This document shows, one piece after another, positions 15,209 to 34,701 of a stretch of DNA of 38,639 nt. The stretch comes from Bacteroidota bacterium (lineage in GTDB: Bacteria > Bacteroidota > Rhodothermia > Rhodothermales > Bin80), in the NCBI GenBank assembly GCA_028873925.1, contig JAPPNA010000125.1, positions 1 to 38,639 of the forward strand. Reading direction: 5' to 3'. The notes under the pieces are model-generated. The model was not told the origin of the DNA and did no database searches. It worked only from the letters and a program-made list of their open reading frames with translations. Within the stretch, counting starts at the first letter, position 1. Every line of letters begins with the position of its first letter. The translations under genes and the position numbers were made by a program.

Positions 15209-17335
15209 ATGACCGAAGAACGCTATCTGGTAGCCGCACGGAAATACCGACCCCAGCGATTCGGTGAACTGGTGGCGCAGGAGCATGTGGCCGAAACCCT
15301 GCGGAATGCCATCCGCATGGATCGGCTCGCCCATGTCTACCTTTTCAGCGGACCCCGCGGCGTGGGCAAGACTACCACCGCGCGCATTCTGGCCAAAGCC
15401 ATCAATTGCACCGGACGTGGGGATGACCCGGAGCCCTGCCGCAAGTGTAACTCGTGTAAAGACCTGGAATCACAGCGCAGCCTCAACATCTTTGAGATCG
15501 ACGCGGCTTCCAACAATAAGGTCGATGATGTTCGCGACCTCCGGGAGACGGTCCACATCCCGCCGCAAGGCGCGATACGCAAGATCTATATAATTGATGA
15601 AGTGCACATGCTCAGCAACGCCGCCTTCAACGCGCTGCTGAAAACGCTGGAAGAACCGCCCTCCTACGCCCTGTTCATCTTTGCCACCACCGAGCCACAC
15701 AAGGTGCTGCCGACGATACTGTCGCGCTGTCAGCGATTCGATTTCCGGCGCATTCCGGTTCCGGCGATCCTGCAGCATCTCAAGCAGATTTGCACAGAGG
15801 AAGGCATTACAGCGGATGAAGAGTCTCTGCTGCTGATTGCCCGGAAAGGGGATGGAGCACTTCGGGATGCGCTGAGCGCGTTCGACCAGGCAGTTGCCCT
15901 ATGTGGTACCAGCCTGGTTTACAGCGAACTGGCGGCTGCCCTGCGCGTGGTGGATGTAGATTATTTCTTTGAGATCGTTGAGTTTATTGCCCGGCATGAA
16001 ACCTCGGCTATCCTGCTGTTTAGCGATCGCGTCCTGAGCCAGGGATTCGATATTCGTGAATTCCTGGGCGGCCTGGCTGAGCATTTGCGCAAGCTGCTGG
16101 TGGCAGTTACTGTCGGTGCACCGCTGCTGCAGGATGTCAGCGAAGCTGTACGGGCACGATACTCCAGCCAAAGCACGCTGTTGACCCAGGCGCAGCTGCT
16201 GCGCATGCTTATGATTGCGGACGATGCGCTGATGGCGTTGCCGATGGCCACATCCCCACGTCTCAAGTTTGAATTAGCACTGCTGAAAATGTCCAGCCTG
16301 TCTCATGGGCTGGATCTGACCGAAGCATTGACCCGACTGCGGAATCTGGAAGATTTTCTGAAGAAAGGGGGACTCAGACAGATGCCCTCTGGAACAGCCG
16401 GGCTACCACCGCGGCCTCAGCCGACACCCGCGGCCACCCGGAAGGCTCCACCACACGGTCAAATCAGTGTGGGGGCCGGAGGTGCGAAGCAGGAAACAGC
16501 CCGCGGGCCCGAAGCGGCCCGTTACCCGGCACCCTCAACCCTGCACGTACCCGAGAAAACTTCTCCGCCCCATCTAGGCGGCGTTGAGCCTGGAGGTGCG
16601 AAGCAGGAGCCAGTTAGCGAACCCCAAGCGGCCCGCTCCCCGGCGACTCCAACCCTGCGTGTACCCGAGAAACCTCCGCCGCCAAGTCAACCGGATGTTG
16701 GGCCCGGAAGTGCAAAGCCGGAACCGGCCCGCGAACCCCAAGCGGCTCGCTCCCCGGCGACTCCAACCCTGCGCGTACCCGAGAAACCTCCGCCGCCAAG
16801 TCAACCGGATGTTGGGCCTGGAAGTGCGATGCCGGAACCGGCCCGCGATCCGACAACCCCAAGCGCGCCGGCCGCAACCGAAAAGGCCGCCGAGGACCGT
16901 GTTGGGTCCGAGCAGCGTACAGCTGAGCAGGTGGACAAAGCGGCTAAGACAACTTCAGCTCCCACCGAGGCGGCTGCGGTACCGGTTCAGATGAACCCGG
17001 AAGAAGTATGGACCCAAGTGACCCGGCAAGTGGCCGAATCCCATCCCAGCACGGCTGACACCATGAAGGGCGCACAGGGGGCGATCTGGCGGAATGACAC
17101 CCTCCATGTTCGCATTGCCGGCAAGTCCCACTATGAGCTCATAGAAGGTCGCAATATCGAAATCACCGCTGCGATCAGAGCCATCACCCAAAATCCCGGG
17201 CTAACACTATCTTTGGAAATGCTGCCAGCCAAGTCCAAGCAGCAGCAGGCTGATGAGCATTTGGATCAGCTAAGGCAGGCCTCACCCACCGTCCAGGTCA
17301 TGATGGACCTGTTTGACGTAGAAATTGTCACCTAA
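15209..17335 (+). CDS. dnaX: DNA polymerase III subunit gamma/tau
   Basis: This 708-residue protein is the clamp-loader ATPase that loads the beta sliding clamp and, as tau, ties polymerase cores together. Walker A GPRGVGKT is at 48-55, zinc ligands are Cys67, 77, 80 and 83, Walker B IIDEVH ends at 133, and the SRC sensor lies in ILSRCQRFDF. Domain III follows, to about residue 385. A Pro-rich linker of about 200 residues then carries a repeated 38-residue unit (114 bp in DNA). The C-terminal ~120 residues resemble the tau tail (EEVWTQVTRQV onwards). ybaB and recR follow in the conserved dnaX-ybaB-recR order. No A-rich slippery site for gamma production was recognised. Confidence 0.97.
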   Translation: MTEERYLVAARKYRPQRFGELVAQEHVAETLRNAIRMDRLAHVYLFSGPRGVGKTTTARILAKAINCTGRGDDPEPCRKCNSCKDLESQRSLNIFEIDAASNNKVDDVRDLRETVHIPPQGAIRKIYIIDEVHMLSNAAFNALLKTLEEPPSYALFIFATTEPHKVLPTILSRCQRFDFRRIPVPAILQHLKQICTEEGITADEESLLLIARKGDGALRDALSAFDQAVALCGTSLVYSELAAALRVVDVDYFFEIVEFIARHETSAILLFSDRVLSQGFDIREFLGGLAEHLRKLLVAVTVGAPLLQDVSEAVRARYSSQSTLLTQAQLLRMLMIADDALMALPMATSPRLKFELALLKMSSLSHGLDLTEALTRLRNLEDFLKKGGLRQMPSGTAGLPPRPQPTPAATRKAPPHGQISVGAGGAKQETARGPEAARYPAPSTLHVPEKTSPPHLGGVEPGGAKQEPVSEPQAARSPATPTLRVPEKPPPPSQPDVGPGSAKPEPAREPQAARSPATPTLRVPEKPPPPSQPDVGPGSAMPEPARDPTTPSAPAATEKAAEDRVGSEQRTAEQVDKAAKTTSAPTEAAAVPVQMNPEEVWTQVTRQVAESHPSTADTMKGAQGAIWRNDTLHVRIAGKSHYELIEGRNIEITAAIRAITQNPGLTLSLEMLPAKSKQQQADEHLDQLRQASPTVQVMMDLFDVEIVT
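16505..16848 (+). repeat. 114-bp tandem repeat in the dnaX linker
   Basis: Two nearly identical 114-bp units run 16619-16732 and 16733-16846, each encoding a 38-residue Pro-rich unit (EPQAARSPATPTLRVPEK, then PPPPSQPDVGPGSA). A third, more diverged unit of the same length precedes them at about 16505-16618. Unit length is a multiple of three, so gain or loss would keep the reading frame. Confidence 0.9.
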
Positions 17336-29185: not shown

Positions 29186-29963
29186 TCTGGCTCCGACGAA
29201 TCCGAAAGCCGCCTTCGGCTGCCCATTGGGTCGGGTGCCCTACGGGCCCGCATGGGATCTCCAGCGGACGCTGAAGGATCGTCTGCTAACTGCACGCCGG
29301 AACCGTGAGCTGCTGCCGCACTTTGTGCTGCTGGTTGAACATTTGCCGGTGTACACGATGGGCAAGAGCGGCCAGGCGCAACACCTGCTGTTGAATGCGG
29401 ACCGGCGCGTTGACCAAGGCATCGAGTACTTTGAGATTGGTCGGGGCGGTGACATCACCTATCACGGCCCCGGGCAGCTCGTGGTGTACTTCCTTTTGGA
29501 CCTGAACCGCTTTTACCGGGATCTGCATCGGTTCATGCGGGATCTGGAGGAAATCGTGATTCGGACCTTGGCTTCATGGGGAATTGCCGGCTACCGCGTG
29601 TCCGGCAGAACGGGTGTATGGGTTGGCCCGGCGGGTCACGAAAAGAAAATCTGCGCCTTCGGCATCCGTTGCAGCCGCTGGGTCACCATGCACGGATTAG
29701 CTCTGAACATAAACACCAATCTGGCCTACTTTGACCACATTATACCCTGCGGCATCTCGGACCGGGGGGTAACCTCATTCCAGACCGAGCTCAATTTCCG
29801 CTGCGACCTGGCGGCCGTGTCCCGGGTCCTGTGCAGTCACTTTGCCCATGTCTTCGGGGCAGACATGGAGCTGCTGGATGAACCTGATGCCTATGATGTG
29901 CTGGAATCCGTCATTGATGTGCCGGACCTGGGCAACACCCTGCAATCGCAACCGTTCTCATGA
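29091..29963 (+). CDS. lipB: Octanoyltransferase LipB
   Basis: LipB moves octanoyl from acyl carrier protein to lipoyl domains, the first step of lipoate synthesis. The active site is clear: RGGDITYHGPGQLVVYF, the Lys of KKICAFGIRCSRWVTMHGLALN, and the nucleophile Cys in IIPCGISDRGVTS. Family text begins only at about LGRVPYGPAWDLQ (29222). The sole in-frame ATG/GTG/TTG far enough upstream is the ATG at 29091, which overlaps sprA by 95 bp and adds about 40 unusual residues. A CTG at 29187, two bases after the sprA stop, is an attractive non-standard start. The 3' end overlaps the next gene as ATGA. Confidence 0.93.
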   Translation: MSSTRILSATAAASPIHPLKAGSTCALISPTNLAPTNPKAAFGCPLGRVPYGPAWDLQRTLKDRLLTARRNRELLPHFVLLVEHLPVYTMGKSGQAQHLLLNADRRVDQGIEYFEIGRGGDITYHGPGQLVVYFLLDLNRFYRDLHRFMRDLEEIVIRTLASWGIAGYRVSGRTGVWVGPAGHEKKICAFGIRCSRWVTMHGLALNINTNLAYFDHIIPCGISDRGVTSFQTELNFRCDLAAVSRVLCSHFAHVFGADMELLDEPDAYDVLESVIDVPDLGNTLQSQPFS

Positions 29964-30388
29964 CCGAAAGTGCAGTCTATGCCTTCGCATTCAACATGGC
30001 CGCCGAGGTCCTGCGTGCGCAGCATCCCGAGTCCGAATTCGGACGACTCAGTATCAGCCTCTATGATCTGAAAACCGGTCAGGAGGCCTACAACATCCAC
30101 TACGACCCGATGGAAGAGGACTATTGCCTCTGCCGGGTGCTGAAATCCGAACCTGCCGCACAATTCGGCGATGGTCCGGCTGACTTGTTTTTCAGTTCGG
30201 AAGTGGAAGTCATAACCGCCTGGCAGACCTCGGAGGAGGCCGCTGGAGCCCTGATTGAGCTCGCCCTCCAGGAAAACCTGATGCCGCAGATCAACTATAT
30301 GCTCAATGCTGAGCCATCACTTGGCGGGCCGCAGCGGCCACCAGACACCCCCAGCCCGCCATTAGGCAGAGGCCGCCGAAGGGCGTAA
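29960..30388 (+). CDS. Unrecognised 142-residue protein downstream of lipB
   Basis: I do not recognise a family. The product is acidic and apparently cytosolic with no signal or membrane helix. It has an N-terminal helix (VYAFAFNMAAEVLRAQHPESE), a beta-like segment (RLSISLYDLKTGQEAYN), MEEDYCLCRVLKSE, then ADLFFSSEVEVITAW, a helical part (EEAAGALIELALQENLM), and a Pro/Arg-rich tail. The start overlaps the lipB stop (ATGA). The last ~70 bp are antisense to the end of a DUF423 remnant. A second, 5'-truncated and frameshifted version lies at 32607-32985. The body is highly similar between copies, so the gene was probably functional recently. Confidence 0.7.
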   Translation: MTESAVYAFAFNMAAEVLRAQHPESEFGRLSISLYDLKTGQEAYNIHYDPMEEDYCLCRVLKSEPAAQFGDGPADLFFSSEVEVITAWQTSEEAAGALIELALQENLMPQINYMLNAEPSLGGPQRPPDTPSPPLGRGRRRA

Positions 30389-30553
30389 TTGCCCCGCGAT
30401 GTTGGTCAGTGCAAGGAGAGAACAGGAACACTGCACCATGCCCGCGATAAAGAGGATCCCGGCAGCCCGTATCCACGGGCCGCCCCTCCGGGTCCGTGCC
30501 CATGCCAACGGGGCCACCGCGTGACCCATCAGAAACCCTGCCGCAGTCATCCG
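30011..30553. repeat. Duplicated ~0.55-kb segment, copy A
   Basis: This segment matches 32607-33168 in the same orientation with scattered substitutions and small indels. It runs from inside the unrecognised gene (CTGCGTGCGCAG) to inside the convergent DUF423 gene (CCGCAGTCATCC). Copy A keeps the 5' part of the unrecognised gene intact but has a truncated DUF423; copy B is the reverse. Confidence 0.9.
30303..30553 (-). pseudogene. DUF423 gene fragment (5'-truncated, frameshifted)
   Basis: Minus-strand text RRGGPWIRAAGILFIAGMV and SLLALTNIAG, followed after a frameshift by FGGLCLMAGWGCLVAAAAR, matches the C-terminal two thirds of the intact DUF423 protein at 32918-33271. The N-terminal third is absent because the homology ends at about 30553. 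The original stop is also lost, so the last frame runs on to 30303. Confidence 0.85.
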
Positions 30554-31043
30554 GTGGATATTCAGCTCAAGTTGCCCACCTATTTGAGCCCAAGAATCCG
30601 CACCTTAGAAACTGTACATTCTGCGATGTGGGGAATGGAACGCAAACAGTGCCCCGAAACGGTCGTGATGTGGGGCAGGGTCCCTATTTTGCTGCGTCAA
30701 AGGGGTCATTTTGAGATGCCGGTGGGTGCGACACCTAACAAAGTTCCTCTGGCGCATATTCCATCCAGACCCGAGCATCTACGAGACCGAACTCGGTGAA
30801 CGCTATGAACGCCGTGCCTGACCGATACCTGTTGAAGGGATTCCGGGTTGACCGGCCCTAAATGTTCTGGAAAGTCAGAACTGGCGGACTGCGGCCCTTT
30901 CGGGCCGATTTCGCCGGCTGGAACCCTGACCAAACGCTCGAGCTCTGAGCAAATTTGGCCTCCGTAGCGTATCCAGCCCTCCTGCCCGCTCCCTAAGTAA
31001 ATTCGGGCGCGACAGCCTATTTGGATCACGCTGGAACGTCTTG
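30554..31043. other. Unassigned left arm of the inserted islet
   Basis: About 490 bp with no gene I can support. Short open frames exist on both strands, and an in-frame piece at about 30748-30815 reads FHPDPSIYETELGERYERRA before a stop. It looks like the C-terminus of a lost gene, but I cannot name it. A GC hairpin lies at 30892-30907. Two loosely similar ~36-bp segments at about 30925-31010 encode RPNLLR-type text on the minus strand and may be an old small repeat. Confidence 0.4.
30892..30907 (-). other. GC-rich hairpin with GAAA loop
   Basis: On the minus strand the sequence CGGCCC-GAAA-GGGCCG forms a perfect six-pair stem with a GNRA tetraloop, about 140 nt downstream of the protease gene stop. 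There is no T run after it, so it is not a typical intrinsic terminator, though it could stabilise a transcript end. Confidence 0.35.
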
Positions 31044-31943
31044 CTATTGTTGCCTTTCATCTGACAGATACTTGATCATAAAATAAGGGTCCAATATCGG
31101 TGCCCGAGCCACACCTCCCAATGATACGGCTAAATCCTGCTCCAGGTTGCTCGGATTGCTGACCTGCCTGAACAAACCACGAGTTTCGGCCCGATCAATC
31201 ACAAAGCCGTGAGACGGATAGTTGCTGGCCAAGTAATAAACCTTATCCATTGAAATATTCCTACCGGCATGAATCAGTCGCTCTCCATACTTCTGTGCGA
31301 CATTCATCGCTCTACCGGCTTCGCCCAGATGCAGTGGATCAATCTGCCCGTAAATGGGCGTGAACAGTCCGTTGGTAAGCTCAGTGGCGATCTTGGCACA
31401 GGTTTGGGAAGTTAGGGTTAATCCGCTCCTGAACTTGGTCTTCACAAAGAAATCCTCGAAAGAATCAAAGGCTCGCTGTTGTAACTGCACCAGCGCATCC
31501 AACACGACCAGTCCAGACTGTGTCTCGCCCAACTCGTCCTTCTTGGACAACTGAACGTCCAGCGGACCCAGTTCACCCTGATCCGTCATGATCAGTTCAT
31601 GCGCTCCAAGGGCCAGCAGTGTGCCGGCGCTCTTGCAAAACCCGGTCACGAATACCGAGAATTGCTCGTAATTTGACTGCAGATGCCGCGCAATAATGTA
31701 AGCTGCATCCGCATCCCCTCCGAGAGTGGTCAGGATTAATATCACATTCTTTCTTTTACTCCTACCCTCACTCACGACTCGGAGCCGTTCGGCGTTCACG
31801 CGTTCTATTGGGCCATTGAACAGGAAAACGTCGGCATCCCGCGACTCTGCGACCGTGTTGGCCCTTGCTACTACGACATCTGGATCCCAAAGCTGCGCTG
31901 TTTCTTGGTCCGACAGCTCAATGGTAGCATCTGAATCTGGCAT
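31044..31943 (-). CDS. SDH family Clp-fold serine proteinase
   Basis: A protein of about 299 residues of the serine dehydrogenase proteinase family (SDH_sah, PF01972), related to ClpP/SppA-type serine hydrolases with a crotonase-like fold. Diagnostic text: LTTLGGDADAAYIIARHL, then GFCKSAGTLLALGAHELIM with the presumed nucleophile Ser in KSAGT, and GELGPLDVQ. No signal peptide is seen, so it is likely cytosolic. I prefer ATG 31943; a GTG at 32009 would add 22 residues. It is a single gene on a lower-G+C segment that splits a tandem duplication, with a transposase remnant nearby, so it was probably acquired horizontally. Targets are unknown. Confidence 0.88.
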   Translation of the reverse strand: MPDSDATIELSDQETAQLWDPDVVVARANTVAESRDADVFLFNGPIERVNAERLRVVSEGRSKRKNVILILTTLGGDADAAYIIARHLQSNYEQFSVFVTGFCKSAGTLLALGAHELIMTDQGELGPLDVQLSKKDELGETQSGLVVLDALVQLQQRAFDSFEDFFVKTKFRSGLTLTSQTCAKIATELTNGLFTPIYGQIDPLHLGEAGRAMNVAQKYGERLIHAGRNISMDKVYYLASNYPSHGFVIDRAETRGLFRQVSNPSNLEQDLAVSLGGVARAPILDPYFMIKYLSDERQQ

Positions 31944-32379
31944 GACAGTTTGGTGCCCTGATTTTTTTGCAATGCTCGTCAAACGGTCCCCGGCCCCATC
32001 GGGGCACACAAAGGCAATACCGCCGATCCGCTGCTGATTTCTTCACGGAGTCACCCCTGCGCCCGGCCTGTGTATTCAGATCACAGTGGCCCTCCGAATT
32101 CACCCACATGCCAGCCGACCTACTGTTGACAACCGGCTTTCCCTGGTAAACACGGTATACTGGCTCAAGCCAAACATGATCGGGCCCCACTATCCCATGG
32201 GAAGGATGAGGATCCGGTGCGGCTGTTCAAGACGCTGCGGTAGAGTCCGGTCATGGATCAGTTGCAACGTCCGTGCCCAGATTCGGTAATCGTGGGAATA
32301 TGGGTCGGGGGACCATTGCGTGGTATCCCCCGCGCGATGCGCGGTCGGACGTACGTTATTGACGCGGTCGGACGTACGT
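31944..32379. other. Unassigned right arm of the inserted islet
   Basis: About 435 bp upstream of the protease gene. It must contain that gene's promoter, but none is distinctive. A 23-bp tandem duplication lies at 32341-32386. Open frames are short and unrecognised. Confidence 0.4.
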
Positions 32380-32386
32380 TATTGAA
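32341..32386. repeat. 23-bp tandem repeat, two units
   Basis: Two adjacent 23-bp units at 32341-32363 and 32364-32386 differ only in the last base. Each contains the 8-bp palindrome ACGTACGT. Two units only; not a CRISPR array. Confidence 0.9.
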
Positions 32387-32606
32387 AGGTGACCCGGGCA
32401 CCATCAAAGGATCAGAGCGCCGAACCGGGACGGGTATGGGTGATCCCCGTTCGTGAAGGCACGCCGCCCAATGCGTCGGCCATTGAGAGGTGTCTGCTGA
32501 CGACTGCAGAGTTGTCTGTCAGTTGGGAAGGCTGCGGAGATCATCAAGTTCTATGATTTGTGCTGCCGTACGGAGGTGACCTTTCGGGCACTCAAGATCG
32601 GCTGCC
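32387..32606 (+). pseudogene. Transposase remnant
   Basis: Plus-strand fragments in different frames read VWVIPVREGTPP...RCLLTTAELSVS and, after a frameshift, AAEIIKFYDLCCRTEVTFRALKIG. This resembles the end of the catalytic domain of IS4/IS701-type DDE transposases, where a LLxTTDLsLsxxEIIxLYxxRxxIEVTFRxLKxG pattern holds the last acidic residue. The remnant stops precisely at the left edge of duplication copy B (32607). No terminal inverted repeats were found. Assignment is by pattern only. Confidence 0.45.
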
Positions 32607-32985
32607 CTGTGTGCGCAGAATCCCGAGTCCGAATTCGGACGACTCAGTATCAGCTTCTATGATCTGGAAACCGGTCAGGAGGCCTATAAACGTCCACTAC
32701 GACCCGATGGAAGAGGACTATTGCCTCTGCCGGGTGCTGAAATCCGAACATGCCGCACAATTCGGCGATGGTCTGGCTGACTTATTTTTCAGCTCAGAAG
32801 TAGAAGTCATAACCGCTTGGCAAACCTCGGAAGAGGCCGCTGGAGCCCTGATTGATCTCGCCTTCCAGGAGAATCTGATGCCGCAGGTCAACTATATGCT
32901 CAACGCTGAGCCGCGACTCAGCGGACTGCAGCGGCTACCAGACATCCCCAGCCCGCCATTAGGCATAGGCCGCCGACGGGCGTAA
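32607..32985 (+). pseudogene. Truncated, frameshifted copy of the gene downstream of lipB
   Basis: The first ~17 codons of the gene at 29960-30388 are absent. A one-base gain near 32687-32692 (GGCCTATAAACG versus GGCCTACAACA) shifts the frame after FYDLETGQEAY. Downstream the protein text is almost the same as copy A (DPMEEDYCLCRVLKSE, EVEVITAW, ENLMPQVNYML) to the same stop. No start codon with support remains. Confidence 0.85.
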
Positions 32986-33168
32986 TGACCCCTACGGCCG
33001 TGATGTTGGTCAGCGCAAGCATATACAGGGAGCCGGAAAACAGCACCATGCCCGCGATAAAGAGCATCCCGGCCGCCCGAATCCACGGGCCGCCCCAGCG
33101 GGTCCACGCCCATGCCAACACCAAAAGGCCCACCGCATGGCTCATCTGGTAGCCCGCCGCAGTCGTCC
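32607..33168. repeat. Duplicated ~0.55-kb segment, copy B
   Basis: Direct-orientation partner of 30011-30553. It begins inside the unrecognised gene (CTGTGTGCGCAG) directly after the transposase remnant and ends inside the intact DUF423 gene. Confidence 0.9.
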
Positions 33169-33271
33169 AGGTCTCCGGGTGCGTCAGATCCAGCCAGTGC
33201 GCCCCAAATGCGCCCAATAGAACTGCGAGTCCGGCACTTAAGGCACCGGCGGCAAAGAAGAATCGCGTCAT
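32918..33271 (-). CDS. DUF423 family membrane protein
   Basis: A 117-residue inner-membrane protein of the DUF423 (YgdD-like) family, function unknown. Four hydrophobic helices are visible. Family marks are LLGAFGAHWLDL near residues 18-29, YQMSHAVGLLVLA, FSGSLYMLALT and ITPVGGLCLMAGW. Length and motif order are normal. It converges with the truncated small gene at 32607-32985, overlapping it by 68 bp. It lies 31 bp after a lipoprotein gene at the end of a minus-strand run that includes rsfS. A 5'-truncated duplicate is at 30303-30553. Confidence 0.92.
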   Translation of the reverse strand: MTRFFFAAGALSAGLAVLLGAFGAHWLDLTHPETWTTAAGYQMSHAVGLLVLAWAWTRWGGPWIRAAGMLFIAGMVLFSGSLYMLALTNITAVGVITPVGGLCLMAGWGCLVAAAVR

Positions 33272-33302: not shown

Positions 33303-33794
33303 TCAGACCTGCGGCTGAATATTGAACGGAACTGCCGTGCCGTTGACCTTTAGGACGTAACTGCCCGCCGTGTAAACGCCATCGAGCATCAGATACAACC
33401 GGTACGGACGCCGCACATTCATGCAGACGGTATCGTCGGGCCTTCGCATATCCAAGGTAGCTTCAATCAGGTTGCCCGACCGCTCCTGACTGAACTGATG
33501 CATCTCCATGCAGGCATCTGGAAAAGATCCCTTGATCAATACCTCAACCTGTACCTCATGGGACTCGTCCGTAAGAGGGGCCGGGCGAATTACTACCGAC
33601 TCAAAAGTGGCTGGCAACAATGTAAAGGAGCCATCTGCAGGGGGGGCGGCCAACGTCAGCGTACGCCGCCCGTCCGGGGCCTGCCCTTCAAACCTGTGTC
33701 CGAATTGCGCATCAGGATTCCGGTCCACAGACCCGCGCGGACCGCTACAGGCTGCGATCAGGAGAAGACAGAAAAGTATACCCAATCGGTTCAT
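33303..33794 (-). CDS. Hypothetical lipoprotein after rsfS
   Basis: A 163-residue exported protein with signal and lipobox LIAAC (Cys at residue 16). The mature part is beta-rich (EVQVEVLIKGSFPDACMEMHQF, RRPYRLYLMLDGVYTAGSYVLKVNG), suggesting a small beta-sandwich. Two cysteines, in DACMEM and TVCMNV, could pair. I do not recognise a named family. The ATG overlaps the rsfS TGA by four bases, so it is translated with rsfS. Confidence 0.75.
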   Translation of the reverse strand: MNRLGILFCLLLIAACSGPRGSVDRNPDAQFGHRFEGQAPDGRRTLTLAAPPADGSFTLLPATFESVVIRPAPLTDESHEVQVEVLIKGSFPDACMEMHQFSQERSGNLIEATLDMRRPDDTVCMNVRRPYRLYLMLDGVYTAGSYVLKVNGTAVPFNIQPQV

Positions 33795-34225
33795 CCTGCG
33801 GAGATCCGGGCAAACGTACTGTCAATCGACTCGCACGGAGCATCGCCCCACAGCCGCTCCAGATCATAAAAGGACCGGCGCTCCGGCGTGAAAATATGGA
33901 CGACCAGGTCCACATAGTCCATCAGCACCCACTGCCGATGATCCGCCCCCTCAACATGCCATGGACGCTCCCGGAATCTGTCGCGCACACGGGTTTCCAC
34001 CGCTTCCACGATAGCTTTGATCTGAACATCTGAATCGCCCGTGCAAACCACAAAGTAGTCCGCCATTCCGCTGACCTCACGCATGTCAATAAGCACGATG
34101 CCTTGGGCCTTCTTTTCCACAGCGGCAGCAATGGCCTCGTCAGCCAGAGCACGGACGGCGGTTTGGGTGGTGCGCCTTTTGTCACGCGCCTTGGATACGC
34201 CGCTGCTCATGTCCGGCTCGCCCAT
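33791..34225 (-). CDS. rsfS: Ribosomal silencing factor RsfS
   Basis: A 144-residue RsfS/Iojap protein. It binds ribosomal protein uL14 and blocks joining of the subunits when nutrients are short. The conserved order is visible: DEAIAAAVEKKAQGIVLIDMREVSGMADYFVVCTG, then WHVEGADHRQWVLMDYVDLVVHIF and RRSFYDLERLWGDA. A ~20-residue basic extension precedes the core. The ATG at 34225 overlaps the last base of the upstream stop; a TTG one codon earlier is also in frame. It lies between a LytR_C protein and a lipoprotein in a coupled run. Confidence 0.95.
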   Translation of the reverse strand: MGEPDMSSGVSKARDKRRTTQTAVRALADEAIAAAVEKKAQGIVLIDMREVSGMADYFVVCTGDSDVQIKAIVEAVETRVRDRFRERPWHVEGADHRQWVLMDYVDLVVHIFTPERRSFYDLERLWGDAPCESIDSTFARISAG

Positions 34226-34701
34226 CAATCAGGAGTCTCACTGAGCGTGTCGGCGACGAACGGGGGAATCAGACCGTAGTCCTTGCCGATAATGATGGAC
34301 GCATCCAGATGGTACTCGTCGCGGATTTCCTGGCTGATGCGATCCTCCGGCAGGCCCAGGGTGGCGACAATATTACGCGAGATATCCAGATTGCCCCTTC
34401 GATCTACCACGATAGTCTCTTCCTGGTCAAAGGATGAGTGATTACCGACCCACACCACATCATAGTTCTTCGTTCTCAAGTAGGTCCGCATCCGTTCAGC
34501 CACCCCATTTACGCCCACACCGTTGCGGACTTCCACCTGGTACACATCGTTCGCGGACGGATACGGGGATTCGATCTGCAGCGAAGGCTGCTCAGCGGCA
34601 GGCAGAAACCGGTTCTGCAGAAATGAAAACACCAAGATGACCACCGCCACCGCGAGTATGGCCGCAATAAACCCGATCAGCAGCGTGCTGAGACGCCCCA
34701 T
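34225..34701 (-). CDS. LytR C-terminal domain membrane protein
   Basis: A 158-residue protein with an N-terminal membrane helix (about 5-28, LLIGFIAAILAVAVVILVFSFL) and a LytR_C domain at about 52-140: VEVRNGVGVNGVAERMRTYL, YDVVWVGN and DASIIIGKDY. Bacteroidota commonly place a standalone LytR_C protein beside rsfS. It should be anchored in the inner membrane with its domain in the periplasm; the role is unknown, though LytR_C occurs in cell-wall enzymes. Its TGA shares a base with the rsfS ATG. Confidence 0.87.
   Translation of the reverse strand: MGRLSTLLIGFIAAILAVAVVILVFSFLQNRFLPAAEQPSLQIESPYPSANDVYQVEVRNGVGVNGVAERMRTYLRTKNYDVVWVGNHSSFDQEETIVVDRRGNLDISRNIVATLGLPEDRISQEIRDEYHLDASIIIGKDYGLIPPFVADTLSETPD

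Follow-up and report, generated by a model that had tools for sequence, protein, structure and literature searches.

Single-crossover (Campbell-type) insertion-duplication leaves an insert between two direct copies, each of which is truncated on its inner side. In bacteria, short tandem duplications arise mostly at short repeats: the confirmed junctions of one study had short direct repeats at their endpoints (PMC3411829), and in another study the endpoints of a bacterial tandem duplication were designed with 9-bp direct repeats (PMC11111574). Repair-mediated duplication of a few hundred bases, closely linked and with capture of nearby DNA, has been described in vertebrates (PMC2671141).

The locus described here lies in a stretch of 38,639 nucleotides (the window), which is part of a 3.93-Mb, 185-contig genome of an uncultured Rhodothermaceae-type bacterium (a metagenome bin). 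The site is inside its contig, flanked by about 30 kb of sequence on its left and 12.5 kb on its right. Like a Campbell-type product, it consists of an insert flanked by direct copies with truncated inner sides, but no donor circle, plasmid gene or integrase was found. Spontaneous bacterial tandem duplications by illegitimate recombination (PMC3411829; PMC11111574) are likewise short head-to-tail copies with genes truncated at the inner ends, whereas the right joint of this locus has no short repeats and 2 kb lie between its copies. The close linkage, the length of a few hundred bases and the inserted DNA resemble repair-mediated duplication (PMC2671141), although that process was described in vertebrates. 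The features of the locus are as follows.

29220..29963, plus strand: lipB (lipoate-protein ligase B), left anchor of the locus (PF21948, 2e-44; same place in relatives)
29960..30388, plus strand: small gene, intact copy, 142 aa (homologues beside lipB across the family)
30010..30553, no strand: copy A of the duplicated segment (repeat search and alignment)
30321..30553, minus strand: DUF423 remnant without a start, in copy A (PF04241, partial, 24 bits)
30592..30763, no strand: MITE-like repeat remnant, unit of about 175 bp, terminal inverted repeats GGAGTCTGCGCCAYAGRAA (copies in the genome)
31044..31943, minus strand: putative SDH/ClpP-fold serine protease gene, intact (PF01972, 2.3e-9)
32153..32605, plus strand: internal fragment of an IS4-family transposase, with indels and stops (aligned to the copies on contigs C154 and C88)
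32606..33168, no strand: copy B of the duplicated segment (repeat search and alignment)
32606..32985, plus strand: small-gene remnant without codons 1-17, in copy B (comparison of A with B, and relatives)
32918..33271, minus strand: DUF423, intact copy, 117 aa, in copy B (PF04241, 2.3e-24)
33303..33794, minus strand: lipoprotein gene, right anchor of the locus (gene order in relatives)
33791..34228, minus strand: rsfS (PF02410, 1.5e-33)

The original prediction held that 30011-30553 and 32607-33168 are direct copies, and this was borne out: in direct orientation A and B share 483 identities over 563 columns, 20 of which are gap columns (89% identical with gaps excluded), and the alignment score of 810 compares with a maximum of 58 among 200 shuffles. 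The duplicated stretch is about 550 bases long and takes in the ends of the small gene and of DUF423, which face each other as convergent genes and overlap by 68 bp. Copy A has the small gene whole and a beheaded DUF423, of which only profile positions 23-71 of 86 are left, with deletions of 7, 6 and 6 bp. Conversely, copy B carries a small gene that has lost codons 1-17 and is frameshifted by a 1-bp insertion at codon 44, together with a DUF423 that belongs to PF04241 over positions 1-86 of 86. Both arrangements had been predicted. The inner truncations of the two direct copies are complementary, as in a tandem duplication with an insertion.

The alignment that had been proposed for fixing the breakpoints did so on one side. 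The left edge of the duplication is sharp, at 30010/32606, but the right edge of A is blurred through decay and fades from about 30553, possibly reaching 30591, with similarity out to 30591 that is faint and weakly supported (16 of 500 shuffles equally good). No homology was found past the right edge, between 30766-31043 and the DNA right of B (52 of 500 shuffles equally good), or past the left edge, between the sequences that precede the two copies (63 of 500). The junction pattern had no match in viral contigs. The small gene belongs to no family in Pfam, NCBIfam or PADLOC, and a PADLOC search of the small gene, protease, DUF423 and transposase gave no match. An ORF of 141 aa at 32560-32985 (plus strand) has a GTG start inside the IS4 fragment and enters the small-gene remnant in frame past the frameshift, and is possibly chimeric. 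Elsewhere in the window, positions 1-61 and 493-553 form a perfect 61-bp direct repeat, 492 bp apart, and 16441-16782 holds three 114-bp tandem units that are 71-74% alike.

A LipB search of genome contigs returned three near relatives at 56-59% identity, the nearest named ones being Rhodothermaceae MAGs; the relatives surveyed are other genera of the family, with no genome of the same genus, and hence no intermediate state, among them. The position of lipB is the same in relatives, and homologues of the small gene adjoin it across the family. Two genomes of the family, G002 and G003, have lipB, small gene, DUF423, lipoprotein and rsfS, one copy each. This is the simple order, with a single small gene and a single DUF423, that had been expected of relatives, and it confirms, as judged from gene order, the predicted ancestral arrangement. 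In three others (G009, G011 and G015), lipB is followed by the small gene and then the lipoprotein gene, and in a further three (G005, G012 and G014) a small gene between lipB and the lipoprotein gene was undetectable with both anchors present. The duplication and the islet between its copies were absent from every relative surveyed, which limits the event to the lineage of the window as far as relatives have been sampled.

The spacer between the copies (30554-32605, 2052 bp) has the size of about 2.05 kb and the protease gene and transposase fragment that had been predicted, as well as a MITE-like remnant that had been overlooked. The MITE-like family is dispersed in the genome, with further copies on contigs C113, C120, C16 and C110 and a partial copy on C33. 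The remnant in the window is 34.6% from the consensus, a figure inflated by 3' misalignment and realistically about 30%, against 6-9% for the other copies. The protease, whose start was taken as the M at 31943 in an ORF that opens at 32009, retains the Ser-containing GFCKSAGT motif; it scores above the cut-off of PF01972 (37.2 against 31.3) and far below that of the NCBIfam equivalog NF047768 (47 against 250, 1.8e-12). A homologue that is 67% identical is present in G014, with relatives in G015 and G011 at other loci. The differences from the G014 gene fall mostly at third codon positions (191, with 100 and 67 at the other two), which indicates that the protease family has been under selection.

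The right end of the islet is an IS4-family remnant, identified by transposase homology (the protein of the C154/C88 copies scores 4.1e-64 with NF033590). A 23-bp perfect tandem duplication lies within it, at 32340-32385. The fragment ends in ggctgc and copy B begins at the very next base, at a point beyond which the transposase continues in C154 and C88. No inverted repeat, target duplication or microhomology was found at this joint, which therefore reads as an illegitimate join and not as a transposon end. For the islet as a whole, terminal inverted repeats at both edges and a target-site duplication, as looked for in a transposon insertion, were not found; its right edge falls inside the IS4 gene, the ends of the MITE lie within it, and its left edge has no sharp position. 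A large target-site duplication made by a transposon was set aside, as the ends do not fit.

Comparison of the copies bears on their fate. Substitutions between A and B affect 32 of 379 sites in the small-gene part (8.4%) and 29 of 165 in the DUF423 part (17.6%), an unevenness with p = 0.003, and synonymous changes make up 14 of the 32 and 14 of the 29. The expected synonymous fraction is 0.26 with both copies neutral (computed), about 0.41 with one neutral and one constrained (our own estimate), and 0.75 with both constrained (assumed). The observed fractions reject both the neutral and the assumed fully constrained case and fit, for both genes, a constrained copy paired with a decaying one. 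With relatives as outgroup, 15 amino-acid differences are informative, and at 11 of these it is the intact copy that has the outgroup residue. Together with synonymous fractions near 0.41, this identifies the truncated copies, on comparative grounds, as those that decayed.

In the IS4 remnant, 76 window-only changes were counted at 295 sites where C154 and C88 agree (26%, which includes any divergence preceding insertion), plus 6 indels. These changes are flat across codon positions (21/30/25) and look neutral; measured against the DUF423 part by itself, they are not significantly in excess (p = 0.15). At 26% and about 30%, the IS4 and MITE remnants appear more aged than the duplicates (8% and 18%), and the islet was therefore probably old by the time of the join. 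The uneven divergence of A and B may, however, reflect gene conversion between them, which could make the duplication look too young and weakens the dating. Between 30010-30180 and 32606-32777 all eight substitutions are protein-changing, and the remainder is rich in synonymous changes; this stretch is a possible gene-conversion tract.

We consider the following history about as probable as all others together (roughly 0.5): the islet came first, and an illegitimate join then brought in the small gene and DUF423 a second time, as a lineage-specific tandem duplication with insertion. A single-copy ancestor with lipB, small gene, DUF423, lipoprotein and rsfS would have gained, in or beside DUF423, a 2-kb islet with the protease gene, made of mobile DNA that was decaying even then. 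One non-homologous join would next have fused codon 17-18 of another small-gene copy to the interior of the dead IS4 transposase, leaving DUF423 intact on the right. The likeliest route would be an unequal exchange in which one chromosome had the islet in DUF423 and its partner, from a sister or another strain, lacked it; template switching in the course of break repair would give the same outcome. Afterwards, DUF423 in A and the small gene in B would have decayed while their intact partners remained constrained. The topology, the order in the ancestor, the lack of the event in relatives, the composition of the islet, its sharp right joint without homology and the decay in the truncated copies are directly visible; that the islet is older than the duplication, and how the two were joined, we infer. 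The staggered ends agree with the predicted tandem duplication with breakpoints inside two convergent genes, but the arrangement is not its exact product alone, since other one-step routes fit too: single-crossover insertion, unequal exchange and template switching are not separated by the sequence. It is doubtful that the duplication rescued DUF423, in the sense that the islet first broke the gene and a non-homologous, unequal exchange with an allele free of the islet put an intact copy back beside the broken one; if true, the scar would record a duplication kept because the gene was repaired.

The main rival, which we regard as somewhat unlikely, puts the duplication first: a simple tandem duplication, about 550 bp long, near whose junction the MITE, the protease and IS4 arrived stepwise before a deletion took away the tail of IS4 together with the left end of copy B. 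In bacteria, small duplications are common (PMC3411829), mobile DNA has also moved into this interval in G004 and, probably, in G006 (see below), and gene conversion would account for young-looking copies. Nevertheless, this order calls for a series of events, each with an end at the junction. The original prediction likewise allowed the islet to come afterwards, and this is not supported: decay in the IS4 and MITE remnants exceeds the divergence of the duplicates, and the IS4 piece breaks off within its transposase, right where copy B starts, and was therefore not placed there by fresh transposition into the junction.

Integration by a single crossover of a circle that held the islet along with a homologous stretch of small gene and DUF423 from a related strain would produce the exact topology, islet and flanking repeats, in one event, and the GC content of the protease gene (51.6%, against 58-61% nearby) hints at a foreign origin. 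However, a functional donor predicts mostly synonymous differences, unlike the 14 of 32 and 14 of 29 observed, and the islet has no recognisable plasmid or integrase gene, which makes this a weaker and improbable alternative. An assembly artefact of the metagenome bin, conceivable in a 185-contig assembly, is very improbable, as A and B are 11% different, the contig extends far to both sides of the site and the remnants show independent decay, which misassembly does not produce. Overall, the locus reads best as ordinary illegitimate recombination specific to this lineage, at a place that mobile DNA has entered in other genera as well.

The interval between the small gene and the lipoprotein gene seems to be a repeated target of invasion, with separate events in other genera of the family. 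In G004 (C2:424113-442925), about 19 kb lie between these two genes, with a DNA methylase (named by eye from the sequence) and a 764-aa IS4-type transposase that has a long extra N-terminal part. In G006 (C71, 840-980 of the extracted locus), a probable IS256-type transposase end, also read by eye, lies between the same genes, where DUF423 sits in other relatives. Such repeated invasion agrees with a permissive spot between convergent genes; a literature search on island hotspots at convergent genes found nothing. The locus in the window is an ordinary kind of genome scar that alters no view of mechanism, and it offers a clear example of mobile DNA and illegitimate recombination reshaping a quiet interval between convergent genes.
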